A stretch of 64,000 nt of DNA from contig NZ_QLME01000010.1 of NCBI RefSeq assembly GCF_003259895.1, positions 1 to 64,000 of the forward strand, in the 5' to 3' direction. Every line of letters starts with the position of its first letter. Within the stretch, counting starts at the first letter, position 1. This DNA is from Halanaerobium saccharolyticum (GTDB lineage Bacteria; Bacillota; Halanaerobiia; Halanaerobiales; Halanaerobiaceae). Shown one piece after another: positions 4,865 to 55,668 of this stretch. Made by a program: the position numbers and the translations under genes. The notes below the pieces were generated by a model. The model was not told the DNA's origin, did not search any database, and saw nothing but the letters and a program-made list of their open reading frames with translations.

Positions 4865-6640
4865 ATGGGATTTAAAAATTTAAATATTGCCAAGAAAATA
4901 TTTTTAGTAATTGGGCTGAGTTTTTTAGTTTTAGTATTGATTATGGGGTATTTTTTGAACTATCAATTTAATTCCTTAAGTAAAAACAATACCGAAACAG
5001 TTAGTAGATATCTGCTAGATGCAGAAAAAGAACGAATTAAAAATGCAACCGAAACAGCTTCTCAGTTTTTGGGAGAGCTGGTTGCTGAGAGATCTGATGA
5101 GCTCAACTCAGAAGAAATAACAGCTTTAATTAGAGATTACAATCAGGATCTGGAATTTGGAGAAGTAGGTTACTTTTTCATTTATGGTCTTGATGGTACT
5201 ACAATCTCTTTACCACCAACTCCAGAAATCGAAGGGACAAATCGCTGGAATCTGCAGGATGAAAACGGAAAATATATTTTGCGCTCTCTGGCAGAAGGAG
5301 CTGAAGCTGGAGGTGCCTTTGTAGACTATATTTATGCAAATCCAGATACAGGGGTAGAGGAAAATAAAATTAGTTATGTAGCACCAATTTCTGGTACAGA
5401 TTATTTTATCGGAGCAGGTACATATGATGGAATAATTAATGCTGAGGTGAACTCAGTTCGGGGAGAACTGGAATCTTTGATCAGCGAAATTTCTACTTCT
5501 TTACTTGTTTTCTTAATTATCACTGCTTTAATCTTTGCTGTAATCCTCTTCTTCATTTCTCGATATATTTCAAAAAATATCAATCAGGTTTTAGCCGGAA
5601 TGAACAAAATGGCTAATGGAGATTTAACTTACAGAATGGATATAAATAGTAATGACGAAATAGGAAAACTGGCTCAGGCATATAATAAAACTGCTGAATC
5701 ACAGAAAAATATGGTTGCTGAGATTCAGATGGAAGTTAGTGAATTAAGTGCTCAAAGTGAGGAACTCGCAGCCTCCGGTCAGGAAGTGGAAAGAGCTGCC
5801 GAACAGGTTGGAGGAGCAATTGAAAATGTTGCTTCCGGAGCCGAAGAACAGTCAGCCCAGATTTCTGAAACAAGTAAAAATGTCAGTCAGTTAATTAACC
5901 AGATTGAAACAACTCGTAAAAAATCTAAAGATATGGATCAATCTTCAACTCAGGTTATTGAAAATGTTAAAACAGGAACTGAATCAATAGAAAGCTCAAT
6001 TAAGCAGGTTAACAAGGTAAAAGATAATTCTGCAGAAATTGGAATTACCATTAATAATCTGGGAGACTTATCAGAAGAAATTGGAGATATCGTTCAATTA
6101 ATCAACAATATCTCACAACAGACAAACTTACTGGCTCTAAATGCTGCTATCGAAGCTGCAAGAGCAGGTGAAGCTGGACGAGGATTTTCAGTTGTTGCTG
6201 ATGAGATCAGACAGCTGGCTGAAGAATCGGCGGCTGCTACTGATAATATTTCTAAACTAATTGATAAAATACAGGCTGGTGTTAATAATGCAGTTCAAAA
6301 GATGGATGGTACAGAATCTGCTGTAAACAGCAGTGTTGAAGTTATTGAAGACACCGGTGAAGTATTTAAAAACATTGAAGGTGCAGTTACTCAACTGAGC
6401 AGTTTAATCAAAGAAATAGATAACGAAACTATGCAGATGGCAGATATAAGTGAGAATGTTGATAATATGATCAATAATGTTGCCGCTGTTAGTGATGAAG
6501 CTGCCAGCAATGCTGAAGAAGTTGCAGCCTCCAGTGAAGAACAGATTGCTTCAACTGAAGAAATTGTATCTGCGGCTCACAGATTGTCAGAGATGTCAGA
6601 TAATCTTAAAAACATGATTTCTAAATTCAAGGTCGAGTAA
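4865..6640 (+). CDS. Methyl-accepting chemotaxis protein with Cache sensor
   Basis: 591 residues. It has an N-terminal membrane segment (about 12-32), an extracytoplasmic single-Cache-type sensor (about 35-200, including [14 protein letters not shown] and FIGAGTYDG), a second membrane segment (about 206-230), HAMP (about 230-283) and a long coiled signalling domain. The signalling tip contains the invariant [20 protein letters not shown]. Such receptors sense small ligands outside the membrane and control CheA. No che genes are in the window. GGGAGG lies 7 bp before the start. The upstream region has part of the motif seen at the neighbouring stress promoters (TATTTTACTT near 4751) and a lone TGTGA half-site, which is too little to claim co-regulation. 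The ligand is unknown. Confidence 0.92.
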
Positions 6641-18494: not shown

Positions 18495-18586
18495 TATTTT
18501 CTCCCTCCTTTATTAAATTCTTCTACTATTATTATACTACATTTAAGTTATTAAATCATAATTAGTGTTAAACTAAGAAGATTTAG

Positions 18587-18624
18587 AACTTTTCCCTGTC
18601 TGACTGAAAGGAGTTAGGAAAGCT
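18587..18624. repeat. Conserved-loop hairpin A
   Basis: A short imperfect stem (CTTTTCCCT/AGGAAAG) encloses GTCTGACTGAAAGGAGTT. The same loop sequence recurs in hairpin B about 215 bp away, and in reverse complement it resembles the loops near 49 kb. It lies in the 518-bp spacer between the antitoxin and encapsulin genes, which contains no gene I can support. Confidence 0.6.
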
Positions 18625-18732
18625 CATCACTCTGATAATTAGATAGTTTCAAATAAATAATTACATCGGAATAGTTCTAAATAATCCATAGCAGGGAATT
18701 AGTTTTTTATGTTTTAAATCTCTATAACCTGA

Positions 18733-18896
18733 TAATTAAAGATATCAATAGTAATGATTCAATCGAAATAGTATAGTTTTGTTATTTTAAGGTATTAAGC
18801 TTCTCACTGTCTGACTGAAAGGAGTTAGAGAAGCTCCTTAAAATAACAAAACTATACGTTAAATGAAGATTGTATTACTATTGATATCTTTAATTA
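18733..18896. repeat. 164-bp cruciform-type inverted repeat with hairpin B at its centre
   Basis: The outer arms are 23 bp perfect (18733-18755 with 18874-18896). After an unpaired bulge the next arms are 21 bp perfect (18772-18792 with 18836-18856). The innermost stem is AGCTTCTC/GAGAAGCT (18798-18805, 18828-18835), enclosing the conserved loop CTGTCTGACTGAAAGGAGTT. No ORF lies inside. It could be a non-autonomous mobile element or a strongly structured RNA. There is no clear target duplication. Confidence 0.8.
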
Positions 18897-47183: not shown

Positions 47184-47241
47184 TTGATATAATGAATAAT
47201 TAGGAATAGATATTATTATAAAATTTGTGCAAGCGTTTGAA
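47184..47241 (+). promoter_or_regulatory. glgP promoter with cre/LacI-type site
   Basis: TTGATA (47184-47189), 17 bp and TAGATA (47207-47212) form a plausible promoter. TGCAAGCGTTTGAA (47228-47241) downstream of the start resembles a catabolite-responsive or LacI-family operator and would act as a road block. Confidence 0.5.
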
Positions 47242-47268
47242 TTAAAATTAACAGGGAGTGATTTATTA

Positions 47269-48879
47269 ATGAACAATAGTAAGCCGCACACAGCTTATTT
47301 TTGTATGGAATACGGTTTAAATGAAAATATGCGTATTTATGCAGGTGGGCTTGGAATTTTAGCAGGAGATATTCTTAAAGGAGCAAAAGAATTTTCTTAT
47401 CCTGTAACAGGAATTGGACTTTTATGGCGCAAAGGATACTCAAAACAGGTAATCAACGAAGAAGGTAGACCCGAAAACCAGCATCCCGTAAATAATGAAA
47501 TTTATGAACATGCTGAAGATACAGGAGAAACTGTAACTGTAACCATTAGAGATCAGGAAGTAACTCTTAAAATCTGGAAGTTGGATAAGTTTGATAATGC
47601 AACCTTATATCTACTTGATGCAAATCTTCCGGAAAACAGAAAATATCAGACAATTACTGACGGTCTTTATGATGGTTTTAATGAAAGAAGAATTGCTCAG
47701 GAAATTGCACTTGGTATTGGTGGAGTTAAAGCAATTCGTAAACTCGGCCTTAAAATTGACATTTATCATTTTAATGAAGGCCATGCTGCTTTAGCTGGAA
47801 CTGAATTGATCAAAGAGAAAATGGAAGCTGGAATGGATTTCCATGCTGCCTGGGATGAGGTTAAAGAAGATATCGTCTTCACAACTCACACCCCGGTCAA
47901 AGAAGGTAATGAATCCCACAGTTTAGACAGCCTCAATAAAATGAGTGCTTTCAATACCTTAACTAGAGAACAGATGAAAGAAATTGGTGACAGTCCTTTT
48001 GGAATGACTGTAGCAGGACTGCGATTGTCAAGAATTTCTAATGGTGTGGCTAAACTGCACGGACAGACTTCCCGAGAAATGTGGAAAAATGTTAGCGGTA
48101 AATCACCTATTATCTCAATTACCAATGGTGTTCACAGAGGTACCTGGGTTGATGATAGAATTGTAGAAAACATGGGTGATACAGAAGCTATTTATAATAC
48201 TCACAAAACAATGAAGCAGGAATTGGTAGACTTCATTAAAGAAAGAAATGGTGCCCAATTAGATCCTGATAAATTAATAATTGGTTTTGCCCGGAGAGCA
48301 ACTGCTTATAAGAGACCTAATTTAATCTTTAAAAAGTCTGATATTATCGATCCCTATTTAGAGTCAGGCGAGGTCCAGTTAGTATTTTCTGGCAAAGCTC
48401 ATCCAACAGATGATAACGGAAAAGAAATTGTAGCTAATCTGGTTAAAAAAGCAAAGGAATTTCCAAATAGTGTAGTTTTCTTAGAAGATTACAATATGGA
48501 AATTGCCCGCTATATGACCCGCGGTGTTGATATCTGGTTAAACAATCCCCGCAAACCACTGGAAGCTAGTGGTACTTCTGGCATGAAAGCTGCTATGAAC
48601 GGTGGCTTAAACTTAAGTATCCTTGATGGCTGGTGGGTTGAAGGTTGTGAACACGGAATCAACGGCTGGCAGTTTGGAGATGGCTATGTAGGTGAAGGTC
48701 AGGACGAAAGTGATCTTTACGCACTCTACCGAGTCTTATTCAACGAAGTTGTCCCTACTTTCTACGGCAACAAAGACCGCTGGAAAGATATGATGATGGA
48801 AAGTATTGATACTACCTATGAAAGATTCTCCGCTAAAAGAATGCTGGAGAGATATTATGCGGAAATGTATAATAAATAA
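47269..48879 (+). CDS. glgP: Alpha-glucan phosphorylase (GT35, short type)
   Basis: The ATG at 47269 follows GGGAGTG; the extra 14 codons back to GTG 47227 cover the operator and are unlikely to be translated. 536 residues, the short form of the family. Blocks: YFCMEYGLNENMRIYAGGLG, LAGDILKGAKEF, FNEGHAAL, VFTTHTPVKEGN, GFARRATAYKRP and the pyridoxal-phosphate lysine motif EASGTSGMKAAMNGG followed by LNLSILDGWW. It releases glucose-1-phosphate from glycogen. It has its own promoter downstream of the kinase-sps operon. Confidence 0.95.
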   Translation: MNNSKPHTAYFCMEYGLNENMRIYAGGLGILAGDILKGAKEFSYPVTGIGLLWRKGYSKQVINEEGRPENQHPVNNEIYEHAEDTGETVTVTIRDQEVTLKIWKLDKFDNATLYLLDANLPENRKYQTITDGLYDGFNERRIAQEIALGIGGVKAIRKLGLKIDIYHFNEGHAALAGTELIKEKMEAGMDFHAAWDEVKEDIVFTTHTPVKEGNESHSLDSLNKMSAFNTLTREQMKEIGDSPFGMTVAGLRLSRISNGVAKLHGQTSREMWKNVSGKSPIISITNGVHRGTWVDDRIVENMGDTEAIYNTHKTMKQELVDFIKERNGAQLDPDKLIIGFARRATAYKRPNLIFKKSDIIDPYLESGEVQLVFSGKAHPTDDNGKEIVANLVKKAKEFPNSVVFLEDYNMEIARYMTRGVDIWLNNPRKPLEASGTSGMKAAMNGGLNLSILDGWWVEGCEHGINGWQFGDGYVGEGQDESDLYALYRVLFNEVVPTFYGNKDRWKDMMMESIDTTYERFSAKRMLERYYAEMYNK

Positions 48880-48923
48880 AAACAATAAAGATAATTAGCC
48901 TAGTCTTCACGACGACTACAGCT

Positions 48924-48991
48924 AAATAAAATTAAGGTCTGCCCTAACTCGTTCCACTCAAACAAGGGGCAGACTTTTCTTAATTTTATTT
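48924..48991. repeat. Conserved-loop hairpin C
   Basis: Arms AAATAAAATTAAG-GTCTGCCC and GGGGCAGAC-TTTTCTTAATTTTATTT enclose the loop TAACTCGTTCCACTCAAACA. A further outer pairing (AAAGATAATTAGC near 48887 with GCTAATTATCTTT near 49018) extends the structure. It may terminate glgP. Confidence 0.75.
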
Positions 48992-49004
48992 GCTTTTAGT
49001 CTGT

Positions 49005-49068
49005 TTCGACTAAATTGCTAATTATCTTTTTGTTTTATTTTGTCAACAACTTAAATAGAAGCTGCAGT
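49005..49068. repeat. 64-bp direct repeat, copy 1 (filled site)
   Basis: The segment from TTCGACTAAATTGCTAATTA through CAACTTAAATAGAAGCTGCAGT recurs with one mismatch at 49369-49432, 364 bp away. Here the repeat is followed by hairpin D. Confidence 0.85.
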
Positions 49069-49163
49069 TCCTAACTCCGCTGCTCTGACGGCCTCGATGG
49101 CCTAATTCTAACTCGACCATGCGTAATAAAACGAAGAGTTAGTGAGACAGGGAAACTGCAATA
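49061..49163. repeat. Conserved-loop hairpin D (compound)
   Basis: The stem GCAGTTCC/GGGAAACTGC encloses TAACTCCGCTGCTCTGAC, an inner GGCC-TCGAT-GGCC hairpin, a TAACTC...GAGTTA hairpin and GTGAGACAGG. It starts and ends with the same loop family as hairpins A-C and E. It sits exactly where the second copy of the 64-bp repeat is uninterrupted. Confidence 0.65.
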
Positions 49164-49238
49164 GCTTATTATTTATATTCAAGTCTGTTCCGGTTAAAGT
49201 GCCAATTCTTTTTTTATTTATATTTATTTGGAGATATT

Positions 49239-49298
49239 AAAATTAAGGCCTGCCCTAACTCGCTTCGCTCAAGCATGGGGCAGGCTTTTCTTAATTTT
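49239..49298. repeat. Conserved-loop hairpin E
   Basis: Arms AAAATTAAGGCCTGCCC and GGGCAGGC-TTTTCTTAATTTT enclose TAACTCGCTTCGCTCAAGCA. It is closely similar to hairpin C, 300 bp upstream, with compensating changes in the stem (GGTCTG/CAGAC against GGCCTG/CAGGC). Confidence 0.75.
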
Positions 49299-49368
49299 AT
49301 CTACTTTAAGTCTGCAACCTTAAACTGTGCTTGTAACGGTCTGTATCAATGGGGAGTGCCCCAGGCGC

Positions 49369-49432
49369 TTCGACTAAATTGCTAATTATTTTTTTGTTTT
49401 ATTTTGTCAACAACTTAAATAGAAGCTGCAGT
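49369..49432. repeat. 64-bp direct repeat, copy 2 (empty site)
   Basis: The second copy of the repeat at 49005. After GCTGCAGT it continues CGCTTATTAT without hairpin D. The whole stretch 48880-49446 contains only these nested repeats and no gene. Confidence 0.85.
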
Positions 49433-49446
49433 CGCTTATTATCTTT

Positions 49447-49995
49447 TTATTTTTTAACCAGCATTGCTTCTTCCAGCTCAGATCTTTTCTCAGCATCGAT
49501 TAAATATTCAACAATTGTCATCGCAAACTCCATGGCAACTCCGGGACCTCTACTGGTAATTATATTCTCATCAATTACGACTCTTTCTTCCCGGTAATTA
49601 CAGGAAGGCATTTGATCATCAAAACCTGGATAACTGGTTGCATTTTTTCCTTTTAAAACCCCGGCAGCTTCCAGGACTATTGGACCTGCACAGACTGCTG
49701 CACAGAGTTTGTCTTCCTCATAAACTTCTTTGATAAGCTTGAGCAGTTCTTCACTCTCACGCAGATTGGCTGCACCCGGCATTCCACCAGGTAAAACTAC
49801 AGCTTTAAGTTCAGCTGCATCTACTTTTGAGATCTCAGTATCTGTTTCAATTTTTATTCCATGGTCTCCTTCAATTTCATTACTTCCTATACCAGCAGTC
49901 AATACATCAAATCCAGCCCGCCGTAGAACATCAATGTTGGTTATCGCTTCAATTTCTTCAAAACCAGGTGCTAAAGGAATTAAAATCTTAGCCAT
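49447..49995 (-). CDS. DJ-1/PfpI family protein
   Basis: 182 residues, soluble. Typical DJ-1/ThiJ segments: KILIPLAPGFEEIEAITNID, AVVLPGGMPGAANLRES, AAVCAGPIVLEAAGVLKG with the nucleophile-elbow Cys (about residue 100) and SRGPGVAMEFAMTIVEYL. The Glu-Cys pair (E17-type and C100) is conserved as in the human DJ-1 group. Members act as stress chaperones, glyoxalases or deglycases. No operon partner; GGAGGC precedes the ATG. Confidence 0.93.
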   Translation of the reverse strand: MAKILIPLAPGFEEIEAITNIDVLRRAGFDVLTAGIGSNEIEGDHGIKIETDTEISKVDAAELKAVVLPGGMPGAANLRESEELLKLIKEVYEEDKLCAAVCAGPIVLEAAGVLKGKNATSYPGFDDQMPSCNYREERVVIDENIITSRGPGVAMEFAMTIVEYLIDAEKRSELEEAMLVKK

Positions 49996-55592: not shown

Positions 55593-55626
55593 AAGTCAAA
55601 AAAGTAAATTAATGTGAATTATTTCT

Positions 55627-55668
55627 TTAGTACCAGGTACAAAACGACCGTTTTGTACCTGGTACTAA
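55627..55668. repeat. GTACC-N-GGTAC double palindrome, copy f
   Basis: 20-bp arms around a 2-bp centre. The cores are GTACCAGGTAC and GTACCTGGTAC (55630-55640, 55655-55665), the same sub-type as copy a. It lies between the ECF gene terminator and the promoter of the hypothetical pair. Confidence 0.85.

Follow-up and report, generated by a model that had tools for sequence, protein, structure and literature searches.

We report that the 59-nt core of a hairpin (hairpin D) between two convergent genes of Halanaerobium saccharolyticum appears to be a mobile element in its own right, an inference drawn from homologous sites that are found both filled and empty in three settings: the loop of D, the right end of TnpB-type IS, and the interior of other copies of the element. 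This non-coding double hairpin, TGAC...GTG, hereafter unit 1, would have entered the apical loop of D, with GCTC to its left and AGACA to its right and no target duplication, D itself being an old component of a hairpin stack between convergent genes. The second copy of a neighboring 64-bp repeat would be no pre-insertion site; it would instead close a segment that arose by duplication or gene conversion and whose own D has lost its apex, for example by slippage across the hairpin. We consider this joint account of anatomy and history, clean insertion of a 59-nt element into an old D loop together with a copy 2 that is a D without its apex, to be quite probable, the moving enzyme being excluded from that estimate. 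The window (the whole 64,000-nt stretch of DNA analyzed here) belongs to a genome of 3.31 Mb in 63 contigs (G000), whose closest relatives by glgP are Halanaerobium species.

The hairpin region lies between the convergent phosphorylase and DJ-1/PfpI genes and comprises two terminator-like palindromes, hairpin D, and the 64-bp repeat (Table 1). The two copies of the repeat are identical at 63/64 positions, and we judge a 64-nt repeat with a single mismatch to be far beyond chance. Copy 1 is followed by TCCTAACTCC...GGGAAACTGCAAT and then AGCTTATTAT, and copy 2 immediately by CGCTTATTAT. The flanking 77-nt palindromes (48927-49003 and 49238-49314) are alike at 87%, in comparison with which the near-identity of the 64-bp copies looks younger than the palindrome duplication. 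What the earlier note had described at this place is borne out by the sequence: the 64-bp duplication at 49005 and 49369, the presence of hairpin D after copy 1 only, with copy 2 running straight on, and the conserved-loop sequence at the two ends of D, where it is split in two (CTAACTCCGCTGCTC / 59 nt / AGACAGGG).

Table 1. Features of the hairpin region and its two neighboring genes, in window coordinates
Feature	Position	Strand	Basis or remark
Phosphorylase gene	47227-48879	+	Upstream neighbor of the hairpin region
First nested palindrome	48880..49041	+	48880-49025 folded as DNA, z -6.9
Inner part of first nested palindrome	48927-48995	+	Terminator-like hairpin; apical loop CTAACTCGTTCCACTCAAACAAGGG, without insert
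64-bp repeat, copy 1	49005..49068	+	Pairwise comparison
Hairpin D	49063..49167	+	Outer stem TGCAGTTCC / GGGAAACTGC plus conserved loop; the insert splits the loop
Unit 1, 59-nt double hairpin TGAC...GTG	49086..49144	+	Covariation, RNA fold, R1 match
Second terminator-like palindrome	49238..49314	+	87% like 48927-49003; loop CTAACTCGCTTCGCTCAAGCATGGG, without insert
Unit 2, another small insert, CAACCTTAAACTG...CCAGGCGC	49315..49368	+	Between AGTCTG and TTCGACT
64-bp repeat, copy 2	49369..49432	+	Pairwise comparison
Remnant D hairpin lacking its apex, AAGCTGCAGTCGCTTATTAT	49423..49442	+	Compared with L056, L057, L061, and L063
DJ-1/PfpI gene	49447-49995	-	Other neighbor of the hairpin region

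The same note had read the two copies as a filled and an empty version of one site, with the entire hairpin D inserted behind the GCAGT of copy 1 and the unfilled target kept in copy 2. That reading agrees with a plain alignment of the copies in the window, and the similar words GAAGCTGCAGT and GAAACTGCAAT flank D, but comparison with sister genomes reveals copy 2 as a D hairpin without its apex. A coreless hairpin D with an unbroken loop is found downstream of glgP in Halanaerobium congolense (L057), Halanaerobium kushneri (L061), and H. saccharolyticum MA284_T2 (L063), with lower arms AATAATAAGC and GCTTATTATT, and a fourth genome, H. saccharolyticum WC1 (L056), has the arms and loop of D there as well, in the filled form. 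Copy 2 keeps D's lower arms on either side of the gap (AAGC...GCTTATTAT), with the upper stem and loop absent, and its CGCTTATTAT is closer to the right D arm of the sisters than is the AGCTTATTAT of copy 1. The sister species thus already contradict insertion of the whole of D, and we give it hardly any credence; for copy 2 we prefer the reading of a damaged D hairpin, located where a recent duplication or conversion tract ends. The second segment of WC1 also terminates in a D-like hairpin, one that holds a different insert (unit 2). In addition, TTTTGTCAACAACTTAAATAGAAGC, which is part of the 64-bp repeat, is absent from both WC1 counterparts whereas D is present in that strain, suggesting that the near-identity of the window copies is younger than D. 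Filled and empty copies inside one genome can therefore mislead, and related species can expose an apparently empty copy as a damaged one.

Unit 1 consists of stem 1 (GGCC/GGCC, loop TCGAT) and stem 2 (CTAACTC/GAGTTAG), and its text, TGACGG...TTAGTG, separates the two halves of D's loop. This loop is filled in the window and in WC1 and empty in H. congolense, H. kushneri, and MA284_T2: GCTC/AAACATGGG of H. congolense corresponds to GCTC(TGAC...GTG)AAGCATGGG of WC1, a clean difference at the same bond. In H. congolense and in G007 (L020), by contrast, it is the terminator palindrome whose loop holds a relative of unit 1, and this loop is without such an insert in the window, in the first palindrome of WC1, and in G008 (L019). 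The glgP tree joins the window to MA284_T2 (empty D) and H. kushneri (empty D) to WC1, with H. congolense lying outside. Given this patchy distribution of the filled D, there may have been one gain followed by losses, two gains, or a transfer of the region; the palindrome before D that is common to the window and WC1 speaks more for one history of the whole block than for two separate hits. The mobility that had been ascribed to D is therefore better assigned to its 59-nt core, where filled and empty loops across species, TnpB-type IS right ends, and nested copies all speak for it, and is not supported for the whole of D.

We built a model (R1) from 11 copies of unit 1 (alignment A3; L003c, L003d, and L041 were excluded as badly aligned or short), in which 96.7% of cells are paired and two-sided changes occur at 9/11 pairs, compared with 29-45% for slid controls. 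Among 97 distinct genus copies, drawn from 67/72 loci with five near-duplicates omitted, 96.6% of cells are paired and 331 are two-sided, in an alignment fitted to the structure. Covariation and RNA folding thus agree that the short repeat contains two conserved hairpins lying side by side. With R1 we obtained 116 matches in 12/12 Halanaerobium genomes (E <= 0.001), 22 of them in G000, including the window match at 49086-49145 (87.2 bits); 35/61 genomes of relatives have matches at E <= 1e-4, and both genomes from outside the class lack them. Rfam gives no match over the window unit 1 at gathering score and none in L002, L003, and L005 with E up to 1; the plasmid records searched yielded no match, and we found no description of the repeat in the open-access literature searched. 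G.T pairs account for 22/1003 standard pairs (2.2%) in unit 1, compared with 14/297 (4.7%) in 13 tRNAs, and A.C mismatches number 6. The excess of G.T over A.C suggests that the sense strand is the folding one, and the low G.T frequency mildly favors DNA over RNA.

We fetched and read 72 genus clusters of unit 1 (L179 in part only), and removal of the 14/72 with identical right flanks leaves 58 distinct contexts. Copies are found immediately upstream of the ribosome-binding sites of acpP, valS, rpmB, and thrS (gene names assigned from the first residues), in 16S-23S spacers and a 23S-5S spacer, and, by eye, ahead of a TPP-like leader. Others are nested in a second unit that is otherwise intact (L164, L167, and L184; less cleanly in L168 and L203). 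Arrays of variable size occupy the interval between fabG-like and acpP genes in at least 9/12 genus genomes (L153, L164, L167, L175, L178, L184, L201, L210, and L214) and end right at the ribosome-binding site. A ribosome-binding site with an ORF lies no more than 40 nt downstream on the unit's strand in 19/58 contexts, compared with 0/58 for the opposite strand and 74/2900 for random positions. Hand-grouping into orthologous sites, with rRNA, tnpB, and convergent glgP sites left out, gives 13 sense and 3 antisense groups; three site groups are antisense to both neighbors (L150/L158, L159/L166, and L170/L174/L198), and in two genomes (L157 and L190) unit 1 lies antisense inside the tnpB coding sequence. 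Unit 1 may consequently alter the RNAs that it enters, whether in the 3' region of tnpB, in rRNA spacers, or in the bases before ribosome-binding sites. In G025 (L220-L235), a multi-hairpin repeat of ~200 bp carries unit 1 in its first or second hairpin loop depending on the copy (L232 versus the rest).

The right ends of TnpB-type IS provide further filled and empty sites. The empty form of site beta, ACAACCTCG/CAAGTT, occurs in L212, L244, and L246, and L254 reads GTAACCTCG(TGAC...AGTG)CAAGTT, with no base added or deleted next to the unit. The site is filled in at least 14 copies: L254 and 13 others that have AAAGTT, one base different; several of these 13 come from G007 and are nearly identical to one another. 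At site alpha the unit is missing from L152, L160, and L186 and present in L192-L196, L244, and L246. We saw no target duplication at the filled IS sites, and the left neighbor of unit 1 in clean cases varies (CTCG, GCTC, GCTG, or GTC).

Unit 1 could be the right end, or part of the omega RNA, of a TnpB-type IS that is left behind as solo ends, as would fit its position just 3' of tnpB at several loci and within repeated sequence in G032. The IS end proper is GGAATCCTCG...GGAGGATGTCAA, however, and the same right end occurs without unit 1 at site beta (L212, L244, and L246), empty ends that rule out unit 1 as the right end of this IS; moreover, the position of unit 1 differs between IS copies, and 57/72 genus clusters have no relative of that tnpB in the fetched stretch, a count in which some stretches are short and of which L160 and L213 do lie in such an end. 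An H. hydrogeniformans-like TnpB (G006), taken as a right-end control, is only ~42% alike and not comparable. We therefore regard an origin of unit 1 as a solo end of a TnpB-type IS as highly improbable. We think as little of the reading of unit 1 as an ancient RNA structure that acts in cis and has been passed down vertically, with the empty loops as losses: its stems do covary and it is retained between fabG and acpP in most genomes of the genus as counted above, yet units lie inside units, the host hairpin differs between species, and IS copies form clean filled and empty pairs.

If unit 1 is indeed a mobile element inserted into D, its mover is a separate question, on which our best guess, offered tentatively, is an enzyme of the Y1/HUH class (IS200/IS605 TnpA or RAYT) that would act in trans on unit 1 as a single-stranded DNA hairpin. 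The lack of duplication, a structured element without genes, and several hairpin-loop sites suggest such an activity on single-stranded DNA. Against it stand the left neighbor, which is not fixed, and three element-bearing genomes (G011, G020, and G026) with no match to PF01797; nor did we find a Y1 gene with unit 1 ends, or the fixed tetra- or pentanucleotide to the left of the insertion that marks IS200/IS605 MITEs and PATEs. The ends of unit 1 are not shared with the TnpB-type IS, and by eye none are present beside two RAYT-like genes (L216 and L217), so that we rejected a RAYT-driven REP; L217 carries GTACCAGGTACAAA hairpins, and such hairpins, not unit 1, flank the RAYT-like gene at G000:C6. 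The alternative that unit 1 spreads at the RNA level keeps the same anatomy: it would be joined into structured RNA (rRNA spacers, leaders, the tnpB 3' region, and terminators) and copied back to DNA, as a bacterial counterpart of mitochondrial double-hairpin elements. The strand bias of ribosome-binding sites with ORFs (19/58 versus 0/58), the sense orientation of copies within rRNA spacers and on the 3' side of tnpB, the lack of target duplication, and the G.T to A.C ratio of 22 to 6 are consistent with this route, but three orthologous groups are antisense to both neighbors, the copy within tnpB (L157 and L190) is antisense, five element-bearing genomes (G008, G015, G022, G032, and G035) have no RVT_1 match, and the share of G.T pairs is low for an RNA in comparison with tRNAs, and we consider it unlikely. 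Y1 genes are present in 32/35 element-bearing genomes and 14/26 without the element, and RT genes in 30/35 and 13/26, counts that are both confounded by kinship and mobile-element load; the presence of either does not discriminate. The two flanks pair no better with each other than swapped flanks do, reaching -15 kcal/mol or better in 20/58 contexts, compared with 31% after swapping. When the flanks of single-unit sites with sufficient flank are joined and folded, the junction falls in a loop at 10/33 genus sites (18% of control positions; p 0.07) and at 13/28 sites outside the genus, 12/13 of the latter being copies of one repeat in G025; these figures do not establish a general preference of unit 1 for hairpin loops.

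The window contains further small structured sequences. Unit 2, of ~50 nt, has a close relative in the D-like hairpin of WC1 (about 5120-5175), a different hairpin from its host in the window, and these two places could alternatively reflect rearrangement. It is found in 3/12 genus genomes, the third requiring 2 mismatches, and its RNA fold is no better than those of shuffles; by eye, similar text lies inside a G025 repeat. At 18738-18892 a 155-nt nested palindrome (DNA fold z -11.4) shares the conserved apical loop (CTAACTCCTTTCAGTCAGACAGTG, minus strand) with the hairpins near 49000, and a smaller palindrome lies at 18578-18625. Read by eye on the other strand, the conserved apical loop is GTYTGA-NN-GNA-NN-GAGTTM (window 48944, 49255, 18598, and 18809; L012 and L013), in which the NN pairs covary around a GNA triloop (GC/GC, CT/AG, CC/GG, and GT/AC). 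Inverted TACCAGGTACAAA pairs occur at 213-259 and 55612-55664 (4 exact matches versus 0.05 expected); since these words also flank the RAYT-like gene at G000:C6:16076, they look like its REP family. Finally, the minus strand at 56254-56346 matches the Rfam pan motif (RF01749) with 46 bits, above the gathering score.

An element of 59 nt that inserts cleanly, covaries, and nests would be a compact system in which to study the movement of repeats that are too short to encode anything. The very small mobile repeats of cyanobacteria, the SDRs of Elhai 2008, are reportedly also tiny, structured, and nesting, with no known transposase. Closer in taxonomy, the IS605 of Halanaerobium hydrogeniformans is described as having PATEs plus 61-67-nt inserts in tnpB, which according to that report lie only in tnpB ORFs and have AAGCT in the loop (PMC7290912). 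These inserts share with unit 1 the genus, a hairpin, a host of the IS200/IS605 family, and a similar length; unit 1 is set apart from them, as they are described, by its dispersal and by the TCGAT loop of hairpin 1 (PMC7290912). GTAG- and CGTC-tagged REPs, including RPE-4 and RPE-6 of Rickettsia, are short, palindromic, and often transcribed, the CGTC repeats being without a known transposase, in a study whose accessible portion names no Halanaerobi- taxon and no Firmicutes (PMC3733652). Read on its minus strand, unit 1 finishes with hairpin 1 and then CGTC, with a fitting loop of 5, but hairpin 1 has 4 pairs where those repeats are given an 8-9-bp stem and a 4-5-nt loop, and with two hairpins in 59 nt the resemblance is confined to one hairpin (PMC3733652). 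The GTAG tag of GTAG REPs and RAYTs is absent from the unit 1 consensus. Mitochondrial double-hairpin elements, or repetitive hairpin-forming elements, of Allomyces and sponges are very short, non-coding, and potentially mobile by an unknown route, occurring tandem and nested in intergenic DNA and rRNA genes with no flanking duplication (PMC2800124). Unit 1 is likewise short, non-coding, hairpin-forming, and nested, with no flanking duplication, and differs in residing in bacterial chromosomes, in its sequence, and in its additional presence at TnpB-IS ends and before ribosome-binding sites (PMC2800124). In form, therefore, unit 1 is a double-hairpin element, and the clean comparisons of L056 with L057 and of L254 with L212 point to its mobility without target-site duplication.
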